Shown here piece by piece: positions 7,517-52,329 of a stretch of DNA of 64,000 nucleotides. Location: the NCBI RefSeq assembly GCF_000147715.2, contig NC_017934.1:620001-684000 (forward strand). Reading direction: 5' to 3'. The position numbers were made by a program, and so were the translations under genes. This DNA is from Mesotoga prima MesG1.Ag.4.2. Its GTDB lineage: Bacteria > Thermotogota > Thermotogae > Petrotogales > Kosmotogaceae. The notes below the pieces were generated by a model that saw nothing but the letters and a program-made list of their open reading frames with translations, was not told the origin of the DNA and did no database searches. Within the stretch, counting starts at the first letter, position 1. Every line of letters starts with the position of its first letter.

Positions 7517-8481
7517 TTGTTGCACCTTCCTTTTTCATCTATGCCAACCACAGAACTTCGCATACCTCTTCTCTCGACCAGGAGGTTTCCGCAATACGGA
7601 CATGTTGTGTCCGATAGACCTGGAAGATCGATATTCCCAACATAAACGTATCGCAAGTACTCCTTTGCTACTTCGGCAAGTTGTATTAGAGAATCAGGCG
7701 AAGTTGGGGGTATTGTGCTCTTGTAGTTAGGAAAGTATCTGTTAATATGAAGTGGGATATCCTTAGACAGCCCTGAGATCCATTTAGCTTCCTCCCTCAT
7801 TTCTTCAGGCGAATCGTTCTTGCCGGGAATAATGAGCGTAGTCAACTCAATGTGCGTTCCCGCTTTCCTGGCTGTCTCTATTGATCGAAGAACAACTCGT
7901 TTTTCTGTGCCGATGTCTTTCACGTAAAACTCGTCATTCCAACCCTTAAGATCGATGTTCATACCTCTTACCGACTGCGAAAGAAGATCCATGGGTTCCT
8001 CGTCAATCACTCCGTTTGTAACAAGTATGCTATATATACCTTCTTTGGCTGCTGCTCGAGAGGTATCAAGTATGAATTCGAAAGAGACAATCGGCTCGTT
8101 ATAAGTGAAAGCTATACCTCGCGATTCTCTCTCCAGAGCAATTTGAATAAGCTGCTGGGGCATAACACGCATTACCGTCTTTGGGCGTTGCTTCGAAATC
8201 TCCCAGTTCTGACAGAAGTTGCATCTCAAATTACAGCCCCATGAACCAACTGAAAGTATCTTCTCGCCAGGGAAAAGATGATAGAGAGGCTTCTTTTCAA
8301 TCGGATCTATAGCAATTGAAGTGAGCTGACCGTAATTAAGAGAATATAGCATTCCGTCAACATTCTTTCTTACGCCACAAAAGCCAACCTGATCGGGCTT
8401 GATTATACAATGCAAGGGGCAAAGAAGACACTGCAGTACCTTTTCCTCGCCATACTCATCAAAGTAAACGGCCGGTTTCAT
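7486..8481 (-). CDS. amrS: AmmeMemoRadiSam system radical SAM enzyme
   Basis: 331 residues. The 4Fe-4S/SAM motif CNLRCNFCQNWEISKQRP sits near residues 83-100, preceded by an N-terminal cysteine cluster (CLLCPLHCIIKPDQVGFCGVR) and followed by a C-terminal zinc-ribbon-like CPYCGNLL and CNNC. This is the PflA-like radical SAM protein that co-occurs with AMMECR1 and Memo proteins. Its substrate is unknown. It is 20 bases downstream of the AMMECR1 gene, confirming the pairing, and overlaps apbE by about 30 bases. Confidence 0.9.
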   Translation of the reverse strand: MKPAVYFDEYGEEKVLQCLLCPLHCIIKPDQVGFCGVRKNVDGMLYSLNYGQLTSIAIDPIEKKPLYHLFPGEKILSVGSWGCNLRCNFCQNWEISKQRPKTVMRVMPQQLIQIALERESRGIAFTYNEPIVSFEFILDTSRAAAKEGIYSILVTNGVIDEEPMDLLSQSVRGMNIDLKGWNDEFYVKDIGTEKRVVLRSIETARKAGTHIELTTLIIPGKNDSPEEMREEAKWISGLSKDIPLHINRYFPNYKSTIPPTSPDSLIQLAEVAKEYLRYVYVGNIDLPGLSDTTCPYCGNLLVERRGMRSSVVGIDEKGRCNNCQKEIPIVF

Positions 8482-8501
8482 GAATTCACCTCTTACCGGT
8501 T

Positions 8502-9017
8502 TCAGCGATACCTTTCAACTGAAAACCTGAAAATACTGTAATCTTCCGATTCCCTTATGCCGGCTTTCCGTAAGGCTATCGATAGCTGCTTTTGAATCGT
8601 GTCTACACCTTCAAGATCGGGAAGCAGGACTCCTTTTCTGTAACCCAGAGAAACAATGACGCCATATTTCTTAGGATCAAGTCCAGAAAGTGTGGTTCTT
8701 TCTGGAGGGCTAAGAATATCGACGGAAACATCTATGTCAGCTAGTTCGCTCGCCTCTACAGGAGGGAATCGAGGGTCTTTTGTAGATGCGGAGATAGCAT
8801 TCTGGATTATTTCAAGAGCAACATTTTCCTGCAAAGGGTATATCGTTCCTATGCAACCTCTAAGCGAGCCGTTTGATGTATGGAGAGAAACGAAACAACC
8901 TGCTCTCTTAGACAGGAACTCTTCAGAAACCCAGTCAGGGGTTCCAATTAAAACACCATGGCGAATAAACTCCTCCATAGCGCATCTTGCAATCCTCACC
9001 GGCTCAGAATAATACAA
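8502..9017 (-). CDS. amrA: AmmeMemoRadiSam system protein A (AMMECR1 domain)
   Basis: 171 residues. The AMMECR1 signature LRGCIGTIYPLQENVALEII lies near residues 52-71, with DPRFPPV and LGYRKGVLLPDLEGVDT further on. The family's biochemical function is unknown. In prokaryotes it travels with a radical SAM enzyme, encoded immediately downstream here, and with a Memo-like protein B, which is not in this window. The start is a TTG with GAGGCG about 6 bases upstream. It follows the phosphofructokinase gene by 9 bases. Confidence 0.88.
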   Translation of the reverse strand: MYYSEPVRIARCAMEEFIRHGVLIGTPDWVSEEFLSKRAGCFVSLHTSNGSLRGCIGTIYPLQENVALEIIQNAISASTKDPRFPPVEASELADIDVSVDILSPPERTTLSGLDPKKYGVIVSLGYRKGVLLPDLEGVDTIQKQLSIALRKAGIRESEDYSIFRFSVERYR

Positions 9018-9026
9018 CTTAACGCC

Positions 9027-10049
9027 TCAATCGAAGAAGATCTGGGACAGTTTGTAATACTCAAAGGGAACTAACTTCTTTGTAGCTATTCCATATTCAA
9101 GGGGAATAGAGATGATATCATTGCCTTTAAGTGCAACCATTCTGCCAAAATCGCCTTTCATGACAAGCTCCATTGCGTGAACTCCGTATCTTGTGCCCAG
9201 AATTCTGTCAAATGCCGTGGGGGTTCCACCTCTCAGAAGGTGCCCCAGAACAACGGATCTAGTATCATAACCCGTTCTCTCAGAGATAATATTCGCCATA
9301 TAATGGGCAATCCCTCCCAGTTTTATATGACCAAAGGCGTCGATCTTGCTTTCATCGCCAACAACATTTTCCAATTCAGTTGGTTTGAAGCCCTCTGCAA
9401 CTGCGATAATCATGTATCCGAATCTATCCATTCGCTTCTTGACATAGGTTAGGATTTCATCTATTGTCATTGGGTATTCAGGAATAAGGATTAGATGTGC
9501 GCCGGCAGCCATGCCAGCTTCCAAAGTCACCCAACCAGCTTCTCTCCCCATTAATTCAACGATAATGATCCGTCCATGTGACTTTGCAGTAGAGTGCAAT
9601 CTGTCAATCGCGTCCGCCCCAACATTTACCGCAGTTTGATAACCAAAAGTATAATCGGTGTTGGCAACATCGTTGTCAATGGTCTTTGGGACTCCAATTG
9701 CTTTGTATCCCATGGATGAGAGTCTTGCAGCCACGGTCAAAGTATCGTCGCCTCCGATTCCTATAATCACATCAAGACCGAGTTTCTTGATGTTTTCCTC
9801 CATTTTTATTCTCATATCTTCCGATTTAAAAGGATTTGTTCTAGATGTTCCAAGGATTGTACCTCCGAGAATGTGAATACCTTCAACATCGTTATCGGTG
9901 AGTTTCATACTCTCACCAACAACCAATCCCTTCCAACCGTGCATCAAACCGATAATTTCCACGTTTTCCGGAGCAGATTTCACGATGCCTCTAATAACTG
10001 CATTCAAACCAGGACAGTCCCCGCCGCCCGTCAATATTCCAATTCGCAT
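9027..10049 (-). CDS. 6-phosphofructokinase, probably pyrophosphate-dependent
   Basis: About 340 residues from the ATG at 10049 (MRIGILTGGGDCPGLNAVIR). The open frame runs seven codons further to 10070, but MRIGIL is the usual start. The glycine-rich site reads IGIGGDDTL with Asp after GGD, and the catalytic loop reads PKTIDNDV with Lys. In the PFKA superfamily, GGDD together with PKTIDND marks PPi-dependent enzymes, whereas ATP enzymes have GGDG and PGTIDND. The enzyme phosphorylates fructose 6-phosphate in glycolysis. It is the first gene of the long minus-strand run and is divergent from rnr. Confidence 0.88.
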   Translation of the reverse strand: MRIGILTGGGDCPGLNAVIRGIVKSAPENVEIIGLMHGWKGLVVGESMKLTDNDVEGIHILGGTILGTSRTNPFKSEDMRIKMEENIKKLGLDVIIGIGGDDTLTVAARLSSMGYKAIGVPKTIDNDVANTDYTFGYQTAVNVGADAIDRLHSTAKSHGRIIIVELMGREAGWVTLEAGMAAGAHLILIPEYPMTIDEILTYVKKRMDRFGYMIIAVAEGFKPTELENVVGDESKIDAFGHIKLGGIAHYMANIISERTGYDTRSVVLGHLLRGGTPTAFDRILGTRYGVHAMELVMKGDFGRMVALKGNDIISIPLEYGIATKKLVPFEYYKLSQIFFD

Positions 10050-43484: not shown

Positions 43485-43796
43485 CGAACCACCTCAATTT
43501 TTGCATATGCTGGTTTAATATTATCACGTTTAACGTCAAAACATCAAGATCTACCTTAAATTATTGATATTAGAAATTGAGTAGACACAACAAACTTGAT
43601 TATTTCGTTTAAGAAAGTAGAATTGAATCCCGACTGGGGGAAAAGTCTTGTCAGATCTTCAACTTCACCGGAGGTTTTGATCTGCCGTGCTATCATCTAG
43701 TAATTATGAATTGGAAGTTCTATTACTTTCCAGAAGTTGCAGCAGGAGTGTTCATAGATTTTGGCTATCAGTTTATGAAGTAGGAGGAGGATTTTT
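43485..43796. other. Intergenic region between MFS and sugar kinase genes
   Basis: About 312 bases between divergent genes. A plus-strand frame ending in VAAGVFIDFGYQFMK then TAG at about 43783 is open for only some 40 codons, has no supported start and is not called. TAGGAGGAGG just before 43797 is the ribosome site of the kinase gene. No clear promoter pair was found. Confidence 0.4.
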
Positions 43797-44819
43797 ATGT
43801 CTAGAGTAGTTACCTTCGGAGAAATAATGATGCGTCTCGCATCTCCTTTGGGAGAGAGATTTGAGCAGACCAAGAATTTCGAAGTTGTTTACGGGGGAGC
43901 GGAAGCCAATGTTGCTGTTGCGATTGCGAAGTACGGCGGAAAAAGTAGATTCGTATCCAAAGTATCTGCCGATCAGTTTGGAGACGCGGCAATTGGGAAT
44001 ATTGGTGTTCACGGGGTGGATACGAATTATGTTTTGAAAGACATTGGCAGGCTAGGTAAATACTTCTATGAATATGGCTATTCTCAGAGACCGTCAAAGG
44101 TAATTTATGACCGTGACAACTCGGTCTTCGCTAATTCAAAGCCCGGAGATTTCGATTGGGAAGAGGTTTTCTCAGATGCCACCTGGTTCCACTTCACAGG
44201 TATTACTCCTGCGCTTAGCGACGGGTTGATTGAAACATGTGAAGTAGCTCTAAGAGAGGCCAAGAAGCGAGGAATAACTGTTTCTTGCGATCTAAATTAC
44301 AGGTCGAGACTATGGAGCAAAGAAAAGGCGAGAAAGGTTATGACTTCTCTTATGAATAACATAGATGTCCTTTTTGCAAATGAGGAGGATAGTGAATCTG
44401 TCTTTGGAATAAAGGCTGAGGGCACTAATGTGAGTGATGGCAGGTTAAGTGTCGAGGGATACAGAGATGTGGCAACAAAGCTTAGGGACACTTTTGATCT
44501 GAAGGCAGTTGCAATTTCCCTAAGAGAAAGCATAAATGCCAATTTCAATAAATGGTCGGCTGCGTTGCTCACTGGAGGAGAATTTATTGTATCTACGAAA
44601 TACGACATAAACATAATCGATCGTGTAGGCGGAGGAGATGCATTTGCTGCGGGATTGATTTTTGGACTGGACAATTCATGGGAACCATTGAAGTCACTTG
44701 AGTTCGGAGTCGCAGCCTCATGCCTAAAACACACAATAAAGGGAGACTTCAACATCGTATCTAGAGACGAGGTCGAAAAGCTACTTGGTGGAAACGCTTC
44801 AGGAAGAGTTGTGAGGTAG
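43797..44819 (+). CDS. kdgK: PfkB-family sugar kinase, probable 2-keto-3-deoxygluconate kinase
   Basis: 340 residues. PfkB motifs: VVYGGAEANVAVAIAKYGGK near residue 31 and the catalytic DRVGGGDAFAAGLIFGL near residue 280. The opening VVTFGEIMMRLASPLGERFEQ and YFYEYGYSQRPSKVIYDR resemble bacterial KDG kinases, which phosphorylate 2-keto-3-deoxygluconate in uronate or Entner-Doudoroff-type routes. Other PfkB sugars cannot be excluded. A KDPG aldolase gene is not seen. It is followed 4 bases later by the threonine synthase pseudogene. Confidence 0.8.
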   Translation: MSRVVTFGEIMMRLASPLGERFEQTKNFEVVYGGAEANVAVAIAKYGGKSRFVSKVSADQFGDAAIGNIGVHGVDTNYVLKDIGRLGKYFYEYGYSQRPSKVIYDRDNSVFANSKPGDFDWEEVFSDATWFHFTGITPALSDGLIETCEVALREAKKRGITVSCDLNYRSRLWSKEKARKVMTSLMNNIDVLFANEEDSESVFGIKAEGTNVSDGRLSVEGYRDVATKLRDTFDLKAVAISLRESINANFNKWSAALLTGGEFIVSTKYDINIIDRVGGGDAFAAGLIFGLDNSWEPLKSLEFGVAASCLKHTIKGDFNIVSRDEVEKLLGGNASGRVVR

Positions 44820-45931
44820 GAATGTGACATCCCGCCATTATGTGCAAAGTTGTGACGTATGCGGTTTCCAGTGCAGCAATTCAGTTGGTATCCCAAAATG
44901 CCCTAAGTGTGGCAGCACTCTGAATTACAGATACAATCAAATTGGCGGAATGGATCTGGATGATTTTCCGGACAAATATCGTTTCGGCTTGTGAAAGTAC
45001 CATAGACTACTACCAATCGATGATATTCGCCATTGTGTAACGCTGGGAGAGGGTGCAACTCCTTTAACTGCTGGCGTTAGACTTCAGGCTGAGTTGGGAA
45101 ACACCGGGAGAATAATGCTGAAGGACGAAACTCAGAATCCTACCGGCACTTACAAAGATCGCCCTGCAGCTATGGGTGTCAGTAAGGCTAAGGAAATCGG
45201 TTCAGGAAAAGTAATCATCGCTTCTGATGGAAACGCTGGACCTGCAACAGCCGCTTATTGTGCGAAAGCTGGACTCCATTATTTCGTACAGATGCCCGCC
45301 GATACGCCTGTTGAAAGAAATGTGCAAACGATCTTATATGGTGCTGAACTAATTCTTGTGGAAAAAAGCACTGTGAGTGATTGTATAGACATGATAATGG
45401 ATCTATCTGAATCTTCTAGCTGGACTCACCTTACAACTGCCTCATCAGTCAATCCTTATCACTTTGAAGGTACGAAGACCATAGCTTTCGAGATTGCTGA
45501 AGATCTTGGATGGAATACTCCCGATTGGGTTATGATGCCCGAGGGAGGGGCCGGACTATCAGCTGCTATTTGGAAGGGCTTTTTGGAGTTGAGCGAAGCT
45601 GGTATGATAGCCAAACTCCCAAGACTCCTAGTTGTTCAGGCTGAGGGTTGTGCGCCTCTGGTAAAGGCCTTTAAGGAGCACGATACCAAGATCGAGAGAT
45701 GGGAAAAGCCCAGTACTCTGGCGAAAGCAATTAGCGTGCCTTACCCGCTTGACGGTGAACTTGCTCTTCGAGCAATAAGGGATTCCGGTGGGTCGGCTAT
45801 CTCCGTGTCAGACAGTGAGATGGTTAACGCTACCCGTGTCACGGCAAGACACGAGGGTATTTTTGCAGAACCAACTGGCGCGGCTTCTATAGCAGGTTTG
45901 GCGAAAGCCCTTGAAGAGGGAATCGTAAGTC

Positions 45932-45947
45932 TCAACTTTGACAGCAA
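45932..45947 (+). repeat. Left terminal inverted repeat of the IS1634-type element
   Basis: TCAACTTTGACAGCAA, perfectly matched in inverse orientation by the right end. It is preceded by the target duplication TAAGT. The stop codon that ends the first thrC fragment (TAA at 45955-45957) lies just inside the element. Confidence 0.9.
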
Positions 45948-46059
45948 AAGAGAATAAATAGTAGGAATAAGTTCTGAAAGGTGCATAAGTTCGTGGTAGA
46001 TACTTGAATCGTTTTTGAAATGCGGTGCCATGTGTGTTTGCTTGTCACTTTGTTAGTAC

Positions 46060-46089
46060 TTGACTTGTATTTAGTTATAGTAATATAAT
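46060..46089 (+). promoter_or_regulatory. Promoter of the IS1634-type transposase
   Basis: TTGACT at 46060-46065 and TATAAT at 46084-46089 with an 18-base spacer, ten bases before the transposase ATG. One mismatch to the sigma-70 consensus in the -35 box only. Very short leader, with AGGTG as ribosome site. Confidence 0.7.
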
Positions 46090-46098
46090 ATAGGTGCC

Positions 46099-47670
46099 AT
46101 GTTTCTCAGACTGAAACACTTCAAAAACAAGGACGGTTCCACCAGGAGTTACCTGCAGCTCGTAGAGAATATACGAGTGGGGAATAAGACTAGACAGAAA
46201 GTTCTGGTTAATCTGGGGAGAGTAGATGATCTTCAGAACAGTGGCCAGATAGATAGGCTTATTGAAAGTCTGAGGAACTTCTCAACGAAAGAATGGATTA
46301 GGAAAGAAGCCCTTAATGTGAATCAAACCTATCTGTGGGGACCTGTAATTATCTTCGAGCAGTTATGGAAGGAACTGGGTATCGAAAGAGTATTGAAGAG
46401 ACTGCTGGGAGATACGGATGTCGTTAGCGATTACGTTGAGGCTATATTCGCTATGGTACTTAACAGACTTGTCGAACCGAGATCGAAGAGGGGAGTAGAC
46501 AGGTGGGTAAGCAAGGTTTACAGACCTGAGTTCGAGCAGTTGAGTCTTCAGCATTACTACCGTGGACTGGATTATCTCGAGAAGTTCAAGGAAGAAGTGG
46601 AGGAAGAGCTATTCAGTAATGTGAAGACTCTCTTCAACTTGAATCTCGATCTAGTATTCTGGGATACAACGAGTACGTACTTCCAGGGAGAAGGACCTGA
46701 ACTTTCAATGTATGGTCGTTCCAAGGATCACAGGTCTGATTGCAAGCAAGTGATGATAGGGGTACTAATGACGAAGGATGGTTTCCCCGTTGCTCACCAA
46801 ATCTTTCCCGGAAACACAGCAGACATAGATACCTTCAGGATAGCTCTTGAGGATATACGAAGGAGATTCAACATAGACAGGGTTATAGTGGTAGCCGATA
46901 GAGGAATGATAAGCAACGGACTCATTGAGGAGATAGATAAGGCCGGGCTTTCATACATATTCGGGGTGAAGATGAGAAGAAGCAAGAGAGTTGAAGCGGT
47001 ATTGAATCAGCCCGGTGATTACGAAGAAGTGGAAGAGAATCTGAAGGTAAAGGAAGTTCTGCATGAGGGGGAGAGATACGTAATCTGTTTCAATCCATTT
47101 CAAGCAGAAAGAGACAGAATAAAAAGCGAAGAGATAGTGAAGAACCTTTCGAAGAAACTTAAAGAGGGACCTAAGAGTCTTGTAGGAAACAGAGGATACA
47201 GGAGATATCTAAATATCCAGAAAACAGATGTGAAGATAGACCAGGAAAAGATGGCCTCAGAAGTTAAATACAATGGCAAATACGTTCTAAGAACGAACAC
47301 AAAACTAACCAATAGAGAGGTTGCTCAATCATACAAGCTACTGTGGAAAGTAGAGAGGACCTTCAGGGAACTGAAGAGCGGACTCGATCTTCGTCCCATA
47401 TACCATTACACAGACACGAGGGTGAAGGGACACATAATGATCTGTTTCCTTGCACTTGTAATGGAGACTGCCTTATGCAGAAAGCTGAAAGAGATTGGAA
47501 GTACTTTCTCTTACGCAGAAATACTCGAAGACTTGACAGAGATAAGAGCAGTTGAGATAACGGTGGAAGGTAAACGCTTTCTTGCAAGGACTGAAACGAT
47601 GGGCAATGCTTACGACGCTTTCAAAGCACTCAAAATAAGACCGCCAAATCTACTCAAAGAGATTACATAA
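46099..47670 (+). CDS. IS1634-family DDE transposase
   Basis: 523 residues, full length. DDE-type residues appear in LVFWDTTSTYFQGEGP (first Asp, near residue 193), VIVVADRGMISNGLIEEI (second Asp) and LLWKVERTFRELKSGLDLRP (Glu in the YREK-like region). The N-terminal QKVLVNLGRVDDL stretch and the long insertion between D2 and E are typical of IS1634 rather than other IS4 relatives. No frameshift, so the element may be active. Confidence 0.92.
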   Translation: MFLRLKHFKNKDGSTRSYLQLVENIRVGNKTRQKVLVNLGRVDDLQNSGQIDRLIESLRNFSTKEWIRKEALNVNQTYLWGPVIIFEQLWKELGIERVLKRLLGDTDVVSDYVEAIFAMVLNRLVEPRSKRGVDRWVSKVYRPEFEQLSLQHYYRGLDYLEKFKEEVEEELFSNVKTLFNLNLDLVFWDTTSTYFQGEGPELSMYGRSKDHRSDCKQVMIGVLMTKDGFPVAHQIFPGNTADIDTFRIALEDIRRRFNIDRVIVVADRGMISNGLIEEIDKAGLSYIFGVKMRRSKRVEAVLNQPGDYEEVEENLKVKEVLHEGERYVICFNPFQAERDRIKSEEIVKNLSKKLKEGPKSLVGNRGYRRYLNIQKTDVKIDQEKMASEVKYNGKYVLRTNTKLTNREVAQSYKLLWKVERTFRELKSGLDLRPIYHYTDTRVKGHIMICFLALVMETALCRKLKEIGSTFSYAEILEDLTEIRAVEITVEGKRFLARTETMGNAYDAFKALKIRPPNLLKEIT

Positions 47671-47738
47671 TAGACCACTGTGGTGGTACGTCTATCTTTC
47701 TTTTCATTTTTTCCCTTGTTTAGCTGTTTTCAGATTCG

Positions 47739-47754
47739 TTGCTGTCAAAGTTGA
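47739..47754 (-). repeat. Right terminal inverted repeat of the IS1634-type element
   Basis: TTGCTGTCAAAGTTGA, the exact inverse of the left end. One base later the second copy of TAAGT begins, and thrC codons resume immediately after it. Confidence 0.9.
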
Positions 47755-48135
47755 CTAAGTAAGGAAGAATCAGTTGTTGCGCTTGTTACGGGGACAGGAC
47801 TAAAGGTCATCTTATCATTTACCAAGCTTCTTGAAATACATAGGACGATTGGAAAGAACATTTTGGATCTGAAGAGCATTTTAGAAGGATAAAGAATAGT
47901 GTGTTCTGCACCTCAAATACTGGAACCCACTGGTTGCATCCAGTAAGGCCCTTTCTCTTTAGTGATCAAAGTATAGAACGCGAAGAACAGAACGTTTCAT
48001 GTATAGGGTAATCCTTTTTTATGTGTGACTATGTGGAGATTTCTCTTATTGACATTTAGAACGTCAAGAGTTCCTTGATCTTCGGCCTTGCATAAGTAGA
48101 GTTTTCTTCAAGGATCGACATATAGTCCATCCCTT

Positions 48136-49392
48136 TCACTCAGGGGATTTCGTTTTCCTTTTTCTGTTTTCAAGTACCTCAACTATTGCGGAGTCGATCT
48201 TTGACATGCCTTTTGAAAGAAGGACCTGGATATTTTCTATTGACCTGTCTAAAGTGTTGGAGATAAATCCCTGCTCTGAGTTGACTCCAAGATTGTCCAT
48301 TGCTAGTAATGCACAGCTATATGCTTCCTGGCCTCCAAGGCCCGCCTTCAATGAACAGCTCTCTTTTGCACCATCGCACATGATGCCTGTCGTGCTCGAT
48401 AGTATAGTCAGCATTGCCTGTTCGATTGTCTCCCTTGCTCCTCCAAGAAGATAGGTAATTCCTGCAGCGGCTCCCGTTCCGGCGGCTGTAACGCATCCAC
48501 AGATCGGGGCAACTCTGCCGAGCTTGTTCTTTATGTAACCAGAGAAAAGGTGGCTCAAAGCTACTGCTTTTGCAATGTCTTTTCGGCTCTTCTGGAAGTA
48601 CTCGCCGGTTAGAGCCACTGGAAGTGTGGCGACAATTCCCTGGTTACCGCTTCCGCTACTGCTCATCACAGGAAGGGGAACACCAGACATCCTGGCGGCC
48701 GAAGCCGCGAAACAATAGTTACGAATCTTGTATCCGAGGCTTACGTTTTCGTGGTAGCTGAAGGTCTCTTTTGAAGGCAACATTTTCTTAAGGCCAAATC
48801 TGGCAATCTCGAGATTCATTTCTATTCCTTCGAAGATCTTCTCGATTTCCAGTTCAGTGATTTCTCGAATTGACTCAAATATCTCTTCAGGAGTAAAGTC
48901 TAATTCATCGGAAGGGACGAATCTCTCACTTGAACGGACCTTTTCTCCGTCTATCTCTAATGAAACTACATTCGTGTGACTGCCAATTATCCTGCAAAGA
49001 ACAGAATGATTATGATTAGACACTGTGGCTTCTATAAATACTCCAGATAGATCTTGATCACAGACCACACTGACCAGACCCTTGTCTATCATCTCTCTTG
49101 CAAGATCAACTGATTCGATTCGGCAAGGTCTAAGCGCCTCCAGCTGGAGGTCCGGATCTCCACATATAGCGCCCAAAGCGCCAGCAAACTCATTACCCTT
49201 TTCATTCGTACCTGGAATTCCCACGTACATTCCGTTCTTGTATACGTTGACGCTGGTAGTTACATGCACTTTTTCTGTTTTTCCCTCAAGTTTGCTTGCT
49301 GCAAGAGCAACACAAAACGCGATCGCTCCAGGTTCCGTACACCCAAGTGCAGGTCTAACTTCTCTTTCAAGGTATTGTTCAAGAAAACGCAT
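48136..49392 (-). CDS. cyuA: L-cysteine desulfidase / L-serine dehydratase-like protein (CyuA/UPF0597)
   Basis: 418 residues. LGCTEPGAIAFCVALAAS near residues 16-33, NVYKNGMYVGIPGTNEKGNEF, SSSGSGNQGIVATLPVAL and APICGCVTAAGTGAAAG near residue 300 mark the family, whose Cys residues hold a 4Fe-4S cluster. Characterised members break L-cysteine into pyruvate, ammonia and sulfide; some related proteins act on serine. A sulfide-producing role would fit the sulfur metabolism suggested by the 33.6 kb operon, though it is far from it. Single-gene unit, ATG start with a GGAGGTGG site. Confidence 0.85.
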   Translation of the reverse strand: MRFLEQYLEREVRPALGCTEPGAIAFCVALAASKLEGKTEKVHVTTSVNVYKNGMYVGIPGTNEKGNEFAGALGAICGDPDLQLEALRPCRIESVDLAREMIDKGLVSVVCDQDLSGVFIEATVSNHNHSVLCRIIGSHTNVVSLEIDGEKVRSSERFVPSDELDFTPEEIFESIREITELEIEKIFEGIEMNLEIARFGLKKMLPSKETFSYHENVSLGYKIRNYCFAASAARMSGVPLPVMSSSGSGNQGIVATLPVALTGEYFQKSRKDIAKAVALSHLFSGYIKNKLGRVAPICGCVTAAGTGAAAGITYLLGGARETIEQAMLTILSSTTGIMCDGAKESCSLKAGLGGQEAYSCALLAMDNLGVNSEQGFISNTLDRSIENIQVLLSKGMSKIDSAIVEVLENRKRKTKSPE

Positions 49393-49714
49393 CTTCCACC
49401 TCCAATGCCCGATAACTTAGTTTATCACTGACAGTGTATCATGTAATTCATTGATGACTATTGTTTTGAACCAAGTATGAGCTCTTAACTGCCTCTTCCA
49501 CTTGGAACTGAAAGTATGCTCATTATTGTGAAGCTGGAAAATCATCTCTGGGAAGGATTTCTTTTCTCGTTTTAAAGAGAAAGACGAACTTTCCAGAGTT
49601 CTTTATCTAGAATCGGTCATGTCTCATACTGAATTAAACTCTTCCAAGAGGGCTAAAGCAGTGTTCCTGATAGTCACTTCAATCTCCTTTGATGTTACAT
49701 AAAAAATCTGGAAG
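49393..49714. other. Intergenic region upstream of cyuA, ending at the IS21-type element
   Basis: About 320 bases without a supported gene. It should contain the minus-strand cyuA promoter. Its last nine bases, ATCTGGAAG at 49706-49714, recur at the far side of the IS21-type element and look like a target-site duplication. Confidence 0.45.
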
Positions 49715-49783
49715 TGTTTTTTGCAAGAGCAAATTCCCTGTTTTTGCAAGAATTCCAAACAACTTTCCACCCGGGAAATTTTG

Positions 49784-50509
49784 TTAATGAGTTTTCATTA
49801 GCGAATTTCTAATTCTAAAACTCTGACCTTCGAACAACAACAAATGACTGTGGTGAACAAGGCGATCAATCATTGCCGAAGTCATCTGTTCATCGTAGAA
49901 GATATGGACCCATTTGCTGAACTCCAGATTTGTTGTGATTATCACGCTCCTTTGTTCATAGCATTCTGAGATAACTTGAAACAACAACTTCGATCCATCA
50001 CGATCAAGAGGCACATAGCCCCACTCATCACAGATAATCAGATCGGCCTTCATTAGAGTTTTCATGAAGGCGTTTAGTTCTGACTTCTTCTGTGCTTCAG
50101 AAAGGCGATTTACCAGCGCAGCTGTTCTGAAGAAACGAACCACCTTGTTCTGTTTGCACGCTTCTAAACCGATTGCCTGAGCAAGGTGAGTCTTTCCAGT
50201 ACCAACGTTTCCGTACAGAATCAAATTCTTCTTCTCGTCTACGAAAGATGCTTTCTTCAGTTCTTCTGGACTTAAGTCCTGGGGTAGTCGTATCTCTTCG
50301 AATGAGAAATCTTCGAATGTCTTCATGGCATAGAAGCCCGCCTGTTTTACCAGGCGGTTCTTCCTTGAAGTCTCACGGTTATCCAGAGCAATCTGTAGTA
50401 TTTTCATAAGGTATTCCTGGTTGTTGTCTGCTTCCACCTCTTCAAATACATCCACTATCTTCCTTCCAAGGCGTAATTTCTTGCAGCAGTACGCAATCTG
50501 CTCTTTCAT
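49784..50509 (-). CDS. istB: IS21 helper ATPase IstB
   Basis: 241 residues, AAA+ ATPase. Walker A is LYGNVGTGKTHLAQAIGLEA near residue 103 and Walker B is LIICDEWGYVPLDRDGSKLL near residue 155, followed by SVIITTNLEFSKW and ALIDRLVHH-type ending (SAMIDRLVHHSHLLLFEG). IstB helps the IstA transposase in target capture and strand transfer. It overlaps istA by 4 bases, as usual. Confidence 0.95.
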   Translation of the reverse strand: MKEQIAYCCKKLRLGRKIVDVFEEVEADNNQEYLMKILQIALDNRETSRKNRLVKQAGFYAMKTFEDFSFEEIRLPQDLSPEELKKASFVDEKKNLILYGNVGTGKTHLAQAIGLEACKQNKVVRFFRTAALVNRLSEAQKKSELNAFMKTLMKADLIICDEWGYVPLDRDGSKLLFQVISECYEQRSVIITTNLEFSKWVHIFYDEQMTSAMIDRLVHHSHLLLFEGQSFRIRNSLMKTH

Positions 50510-52017
50510 GATTGGCTACTCCTTCCCAGGAATAGATCATAGTCAAGTGTTTTGTTCTTAAGAGGTGGGAGTTCTGGTACGTCATTTGGGAGTAAAACAG
50601 GACTGAACTCGAAGCTTTCCGTGTTGAGACGCCGGAATATAGCAAGGACACTATCGCTGTCTTTTGCTCCTCTCTCTAGAGCTGCAAGGAAGGCTTCTAC
50701 TGCACTCAAAAAGCCTTTATCTTCGCTCAGCTCTGCAAGGATCTTGAGAGTCTCTTTCTTGCTTGAGCGATCACTCTGCTCAAGAAACTCTTGTAGTGGA
50801 GAAGGAAACAGTCCGTATATTCCCGTGTATTTCAGCGCTGCGGGTCTCCTGGATAATTGGGTGAGATAAGGGATCCAGTTCATTGATTCTCTCTTCATCT
50901 GTCCATACAGTCTGGGGTGAGTGATTATCTCTTTGTAGTCCCTGTCCATTACGATAACTTCATGTGCGGTCAGTCTTGCCCATATCTCGGTCTTTGCATA
51001 TTGTGGAGCGCTTGAATATGTATGCCTTCCTTTCTCAAGGGTGAACTTCGCGTGAGCATCTGTGCGAACGGCCAGGAGGATCGATTCATCGTACTTATTT
51101 GGCGCAAGTGTTAGAAGCTTTGTCCTGTCTTCTTCAAATCGCTCTCTTATCATGCCTGGCTTCGAATAGTGCGGTCTTTCCATATCATGATCACATCGAG
51201 CGAGGAGCTCTTTGTTGAAGGCCATTAAGTCATTTATCTCTGGAACAGGAACTAGCAGGTTTCTCCTATGGTATCCCACTTTACTTTCGACGCTGCCTTT
51301 CTCATTCCCGCTCTGGGGATTACAAAAGACTGCTTCGAATCCATAGTGATTCTTGAATCTGAGAAAGTGTTCGGAAAGGATCCGGTCTACTTCCTTCAGT
51401 ATTTTGCTGACCATGGATGAGGCGTTGTCAAACCATATTCGGTTGGGAACACCCCCTATGTGGTTGAAGACATTCATGAGCCCTTCCATTAGGCATTGTT
51501 GGTTCTCTCCCTTGAAGAGCTGAAGATATCCCCCGTTGCTGTAGGGAAAGGAGACATTCAGAGTATATCCGTGACAGCGAACCCCGTTTTCCAGAAAGTC
51601 AGCTTCTCCAAAGTCTACCTGTGCTTCACCGGGTTTGTGTTCCAAAGCGAAGTAAAACTCTTTGTTCTGGCCATAAAGTTCTTTCCTCTTCTGTGCCACG
51701 TATGTTGCTACAAGACGATACGAACAGTCAAAGGAACCACCGTGTTTTTCCTGAAGCCTCTTGAATACTCTTAAAGCCGTATGTCGCTGTTTCCTTCTTT
51801 CAAGTTTGTCTTGCTCAAGCCAACAGTCAATCTCTTCTTTGAAAGGATCGAGCTTCGACTTAACTGTTTTCTTTGTCTGTGGTGGCTGTATATTGAAATC
51901 ATCCTTCAGAATGTACTTCTTCACTGTCTTCACATCCGTCTTTGTTTCTCTTGCAATCTCTACAATTCGCTTTCCTTCATTAAAATATTTGCTTCTGATA
52001 GAATTGATCTTAGCCAT
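50506..52017 (-). CDS. istA: IS21 transposase IstA
   Basis: About 503 residues from the ATG at 52017, nine bases after AGGAGG (a second ATG at 52026 directly abuts that site). N-terminal helix-turn-helix IVEIARETKTDVKTVKKYIL, then an rve-type DDE core with GEAQVDFGEADFLENG, RIWFDNASSMV and NPQSGNEKGSVESKVGYHRR carrying the Asp, Asp and Glu. Intact, so the element may be mobile. Confidence 0.94.
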   Translation of the reverse strand: MAKINSIRSKYFNEGKRIVEIARETKTDVKTVKKYILKDDFNIQPPQTKKTVKSKLDPFKEEIDCWLEQDKLERRKQRHTALRVFKRLQEKHGGSFDCSYRLVATYVAQKRKELYGQNKEFYFALEHKPGEAQVDFGEADFLENGVRCHGYTLNVSFPYSNGGYLQLFKGENQQCLMEGLMNVFNHIGGVPNRIWFDNASSMVSKILKEVDRILSEHFLRFKNHYGFEAVFCNPQSGNEKGSVESKVGYHRRNLLVPVPEINDLMAFNKELLARCDHDMERPHYSKPGMIRERFEEDRTKLLTLAPNKYDESILLAVRTDAHAKFTLEKGRHTYSSAPQYAKTEIWARLTAHEVIVMDRDYKEIITHPRLYGQMKRESMNWIPYLTQLSRRPAALKYTGIYGLFPSPLQEFLEQSDRSSKKETLKILAELSEDKGFLSAVEAFLAALERGAKDSDSVLAIFRRLNTESFEFSPVLLPNDVPELPPLKNKTLDYDLFLGRSSQS

Positions 52018-52329
52018 TGCAACCATCCTCCTTTGTTCCTCCCCTTTATAGTGTCGTAACTACAAGGGTAGGTAATTCCGGGGGAAGTTGCAATGGCTCT
52101 TTGCATTAACAGGGAATTTTCCCTGCAATTGCAGGGAATCACTCACTGCAATTACCGGTACTTATATTCTGCAGCAAACAATCTGGAAGGACAAATTTGA
52201 CAATTATTGGATTGTGTTAGAATCCCTTTATTCGCTGAAATACTGACTGAGAAAGGCAATGACGGAAGATTGTTATCAGAAAAGACCATAAATCAGTCAG
52301 GTGAGGATAACTAGTCGGTACTGGAATCC

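Follow-up and report, generated by a model that had tools for sequence, protein, structure and literature searches.

The gene at positions 44824-47892 of the window, by which we mean the whole 64,000-nt stretch of Mesotoga prima MesG1.Ag.4.2 DNA that was analysed, carries two independent lesions, as an earlier note based on the sequence had proposed, and with a probability of about 0.85 it is a pseudogene that once encoded an accessory PLP enzyme of fold type II, set in a sugar-acid context and wrongly annotated as a threonine synthase. The double lesion, a TGA at codon 57 and an IS1634-family insertion, is real and far beyond chance, and the gene is most likely an accessory catabolic enzyme's ordinary pseudogene.

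In the history that we propose, the PLP gene and a 2-keto-3-deoxy-sugar-acid kinase would have formed a two-gene unit beside a divergent seven-gene operon in the ancestor of a Mesotoga group. M. prima would have lost this sugar-acid uptake and breakdown operon by deletion (~10 kb). The PLP gene would have suffered two inactivating hits, the change of a Trp codon to a stop and the arrival of the IS1634-family element, which severed the last 43 residues, with the kinase retained and threonine synthesis unaffected. We infer both the order of these events and the loss of selection. The gene and the element within it are laid out as follows, in window coordinates:

44824-47892, plus strand: broken ThrC-like PLP gene, with a GTG start at 44824 and a TAA at 47890-47892
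44824-45930, plus strand: 5' part of the broken gene, with a PALP domain (PF00291), fold type II, and a Zn ribbon (CxxC...CxxC), ending in the left TAAGT
44992-44994, plus strand: premature stop TGA at codon 57, TGG (Trp) in relatives
45926-45930, plus strand: left copy of the target-site duplication TAAGT, from the sequence and relatives
45931-47755, plus strand: IS1634-family insertion element, 1825 bp, recognised by its inverted repeats, target-site duplication, and transposase
46099-47670, plus strand: IS1634 transposase, an intact DDE protein of 523 aa (NF033559, PF01609)
47756-47760, plus strand: right copy of the target-site duplication TAAGT, from the sequence and relatives
47761-47892, plus strand: 3' part of the broken gene, comprising the last 43 codons with the TGTGLK motif, plus the TAA

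The broken gene's family is unlikely to make threonine

In regard to overall similarity, the name threonine synthase is understandable. Read through the TGA, the broken gene scores 319.5 bits against NF006050 (cut-off 303), and against TIGR00260 it scores 206 bits (cut-off 167); intact orthologs likewise pass the NCBIfam "threonine synthase" models. The nearest solved structures are ThrC (PDB 2zsj, 2d1f, 6cgq, and 1uim), and the gene shares with the genome's true ThrC the fold-type II PLP superfamily and 36% identity. Within the genus, where our search took in ten Mesotoga species genomes, the product read through the TGA up to the insertion is 86%, 86%, 81%, and 65% identical to the intact genes of G009, G007, G002, and G008, respectively.

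The gene nevertheless differs from ThrC in its signature residues, in its N-terminal Zn ribbon, and in its sugar-acid gene context. All ThrC rows examined carry ASTGNT(S/A), NS.NP.R, and PVGNAGN, and three solved threonine synthases retain the signature residues. The broken gene's family instead carries ASDGN(A/T)GPA, TTA...NPY(H/Q), and P(A/V)GG(A/G)GL; in the orthologs and the broken copy, ASDGNAGPA, TTA..VNPYH, and GGAGL replace the STGNT, NS..NP.R, and GNAGN motifs, and the ThrC signature STGNT(S/A), NS.NP.R, GNAGN was absent from the broken copy and all orthologs aligned. We take the ThrC residues, from structures of the Thermus enzyme, to hold the phosphate of O-phosphohomoserine, and their absence here makes threonine synthase activity unlikely for this family, although living relatives may have weak ThrC activity, given their scores above the thrC cut-offs. 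In the tree, the broken gene does not group with ThrC and falls in a clade apart from the ThrC clade (98/92); its own clade also takes in a sequence of a different Thermotogota family (91/78). The separate clade, the missing signature residues, and the sugar-acid neighbours together argue against the name that the earlier note had given the gene, and the living family appears, from its sequences, to be misnamed. Thus a gene that scores above curated "threonine synthase" cut-offs can be another enzyme, which matters for automated auxotrophy calls.

An alternative that fares better than the others, yet seems improbable to us, is that the gene did make threonine and was decaying by drift as a surplus third isozyme. 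It shares the fold and superfamily of ThrC, Zn-ribbon ThrC-like models match it, and true thrC is itself duplicated in this genome. However, across several lineages no intact ortholog has the ThrC residues of STGNT, NS..NP.R, and GNAGN, and the neighbours are sugar-acid genes: the broken gene adjoins a KDG-type kinase, with no linkage to hom or thrB, whereas the true thrC pair lies in hom-thrC-thrB. The suggestion of a redundant copy under no selection survives as far as dispensability goes, but the dispensable gene is no copy of thrC: it encoded a separate kind of Zn-ribbon PLP enzyme that lacks the ThrC signature.

M. prima has three further paralogs of the Zn-ribbon "threonine synthase" kind, each in a clade of its own and each without the ThrC signature, and on these grounds they are probably misnamed. 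Plasmid-borne "threonine synthases" of haloarchaea, Azospirillum, and Chlorohelix were considered as a guide to context and set aside, as they belong to other subfamilies; the Chlorohelix gene likewise lies among sugar genes.

A sugar-acid neighbourhood and its decay across Mesotoga

The surroundings of the broken gene in the window are these:

43527-43662, no strand: putative deletion junction of 136 bp, where relatives (G007 and others) have ~10.0 kb
43797-44819, plus strand: intact PfkB-family kinase of the 2-keto-3-deoxy-sugar-acid (KDG/KDGal) type (PF00294, NF041633/NF041332)
48136-49392, minus strand: intact SDH-alpha gene (PF03313; serine dehydratase alpha / cysteine desulfidase-like), a convergent neighbour also found in relatives

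The kinase gene precedes the broken gene by 4 nt and runs in the same direction. In G007, G009, G002, and G005, the PLP gene likewise follows a KDG/KDGal-type PfkB kinase, and the same four relatives have a divergent seven-gene operon encoding RpiR, a DHDPS-family KDG aldolase, two PfkB kinases, TctC, TctB, and TctA, its gene content being counted as far as the contigs reach. Window positions 43526 and 43663 flank the site at which G007 has ~10.0 kb with this operon (L110:7496-17511), and no ortholog of the KDG aldolase was found anywhere in the M. prima genome. G006, which has the same upstream MFS gene, still has pieces of the operon at this position (a TctA fragment, an aldolase with a stop, and the regulator), so the comparison is more simply explained by deletion of the operon in M. 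prima. G001, G003, and G004 have the seven operon genes, again counted to the ends of the contigs, but lack the kinase-PLP pair.

Exactly those seven of the ten Mesotoga genomes that have the PLP gene or a relic of it also have an intact kinase. Its partner is damaged in three of these seven: in M. prima; in G006, where it carries TGA, TAA, and TAG stops along with other damage; and in G005, where it has 1-nt and 2-nt deletions, the latter less certain because it lies in a T-run. Since the lesions differ among the three genomes, they arose separately. Loss of the operon as the sole cause of decay was rejected, as the G005 operon is intact and its PLP gene frameshifted. The kinase stays intact beside all three damaged partners, with a dN/dS of 0.04-0.10 wherever it is computable, which suggests that it has a separate function. 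Repeated damage beside an always-intact kinase offers a small natural series on the loss of a catabolic branch.

Two lesions in one gene

The insertion has the common features of the IS1634 family, namely a DDE transposase, terminal inverted repeats, a 5-bp duplication, and a length of ~1.8 kb. Its 16-nt inverted repeats (45932-45947 and 47739-47754) are perfect, at 16/16, and the transposase matches the NCBIfam model transpos_IS1634 (NF033559) with 420.4 bits over residues 32-514 of 523, against a cut-off of 100. One extra C stands on each side between the 16-nt arm and TAAGT, so the element is bounded at 45931-47755, with its outermost bases unpaired (C/C); apart from this mismatched outer base pair, nothing notable sets the M. 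prima copy apart from its family. Two other full-length copies in the genome, 96-97% identical and with an intact 523-aa reading frame, point to recent mobility. Several partial copies of the element also occur elsewhere in the genome, and another copy (G000:C1:1690472-1693636) is itself split by ~1.3 kb of other DNA. The window holds a second mobile element at 49715-52167, with IS21-like genes on the minus strand (istB at 49784-50509 and istA at 50506-52026), which adjoins the SDH-alpha gene; G009 lacks this element at the corresponding position.

The empty site is seen directly, because relatives carry the gene uninterrupted by the element. In G007, L062:5512-7780 and 7776-9452 match window positions 43663-45930 and 47756-49428, and the two alignments overlap by exactly 5 bp, which is the duplication; the same holds in G009 and G005, and TAAGT is present once in the relatives. 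The repeats, the duplication, and the family assignment given in the earlier note are upheld, as is its prediction that deleting the element with one duplicate would restore IVS-KEESVVALVTG: scripted joining of the flanks yields this junction within a 412-aa frame that only the TGA interrupts and that equals the frame of G007, G009, and G002. Compared with intact orthologs, the M. prima gene therefore has both a stop at codon 57 and its last 43 codons severed by the insertion, and the severed part includes a TG.GLK motif that is almost invariant in the paralog alignment.

The stop stands where Trp is expected, all five relatives read at codon 57 (G007, G009, G002, G008, and G005) having TGG. 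It is unlikely that the TGA reflects a mistake in sequencing or assembly and that the insertion is the only lesion; the single-base difference from TGG in every relative read lends this reading what weight it has. The record looks finished, consisting of one 2.97-Mb contig (C1, 2,974,229 bp) plus 1.7 kb (a second contig of 1,724 bp), and the published chromosome size of the strain is 2,974,229 bp (PMC4603820). Moreover, eight of the amino-acid changes in the broken copy fall at sites that do not vary among four orthologs, one of them being A240E in the P-A-G-G-A-G-L loop. With or without the TGA, the gene is dead. The M. prima branch has 21-23 amino-acid changes against 14-15 on the sister branch, a small excess that is statistically too slight for a claim of relaxed selection, and the decay looks recent. 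It is highly improbable that the TGA is read through or recoded (as Trp or selenocysteine) and the element excised to leave a conditionally functional gene: in its favour are a frame open to either side and a perfect duplication, but TGG in the relatives makes UGA a new stop, the lesions of other kinds in G005 and G006 speak for decay, and precise excision of insertion sequences is rare as a rule.

Threonine synthesis elsewhere in the genome

Eleven PALP-domain genes are present in the M. prima genome. The genome-wide search for another thrC that the earlier note had suggested turned up two intact, true copies, at C1:169-170 kb and 179-180 kb, which score 315 and 323 bits against TIGR00260 (cut-off 167), fall in the ThrC clade of the tree (98/92), and carry all signature residues. 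Each sits between an aspartokinase-homoserine dehydrogenase fusion gene and a thrB-like gene, in clusters of the form aspartokinase/homoserine dehydrogenase-thrC-thrB at C1:167.1-171.2 kb and 177.2-181.2 kb; the thrB-like genes score 155-159 bits, slightly below the model cut-off of 168. The genome also has asd. Because two complete thr operons remain, threonine synthesis should be unaffected by the loss of the broken gene.

Threonine auxotrophy, which the earlier note had raised as one meaning of the double lesion, draws on the broken gene being dead and passing the NCBIfam thrC models, yet it is contradicted by two intact ThrC with every signature residue, each in its hom/aspartokinase-thrC-thrB cluster, together with asd, and we regard it as very improbable. 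A false inference of auxotrophy is thus removed from a reference genome. The whole thr operon (fusion gene, thrC, thrB, and then a 474-480-aa gene) occurs twice, ~10 kb apart (G000:C1:164000-183000), and thrC1 clusters with the G006 copy and not with thrC2.

A possible function of the living orthologs

Removal of ammonia from 2-amino-3-hydroxy acids is a common reaction among PALP enzymes of fold type II. If such a lyase took a 2-amino sugar acid, its product would be a 2-keto-3-deoxy acid, the class of compound that the neighbouring kinases and aldolase use, and genes for a 2-keto-3-deoxy-acid kinase and aldolase are found at the locus in G002, G005, G007, and G009. We tentatively propose, from motifs and gene context, that the living enzyme may be an ammonia-lyase whose substrate is a glucosaminate-like 2-amino-3-hydroxy sugar acid with the D configuration at C2 and whose product, a 2-keto-3-deoxy acid, would feed the kinase and aldolase. 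Somewhat more doubtful is the wider idea that the intact relatives constitute an unrecognised family, filed as threonine synthase, whose members would split ammonia off 2-amino sugar acids of D configuration and so form 2-keto-3-deoxy acids. Alternatively, the living enzyme may be a racemase or epimerase.

The Asp of SDGN, a candidate for the residue that would take the proton of a D-amino acid, is invariant in the clade and aligns with the Asp of TDGNHG in E. coli YgeX, a 2,3-diaminopropionate ammonia-lyase in which this residue is the proposed base for the D-isomer. YgeX shares with the broken gene's family the Asp in the (S/T)DGN loop, but the two are only 20% identical overall and their other motifs differ.

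A second likeness is to the DgaE system. A distant relative of the PLP enzyme from the Bacillota (48% identical) lies in a gene run with RidA, a DgaE-family protein, a solute-binding protein, and permeases, the DgaE-like protein scoring below that family's curated cut-off, and the partner genes in Mesotoga are predicted to act on 2-keto-3-deoxy acids. DgaE has a SelA-like fold, however, not a ThrC-like one. If the proposed activity were correct, it would represent a second, ThrC-fold answer to the reaction of SelA-fold DgaE, and the living orthologs would be candidates for a new amino-sugar-acid lyase. A literature search for a link between threonine synthase and glucosaminate found none, and an AlphaFold model of an intact ortholog built from a two-row alignment had a mean pLDDT of 38 and was unusable. 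In the Bacillota genome G448 (L146:5510-7998), two ThrC-like PALP genes stand in tandem and adjoin genes for an M20 peptidase, a class-V aminotransferase, and an amino-acid ABC transporter.
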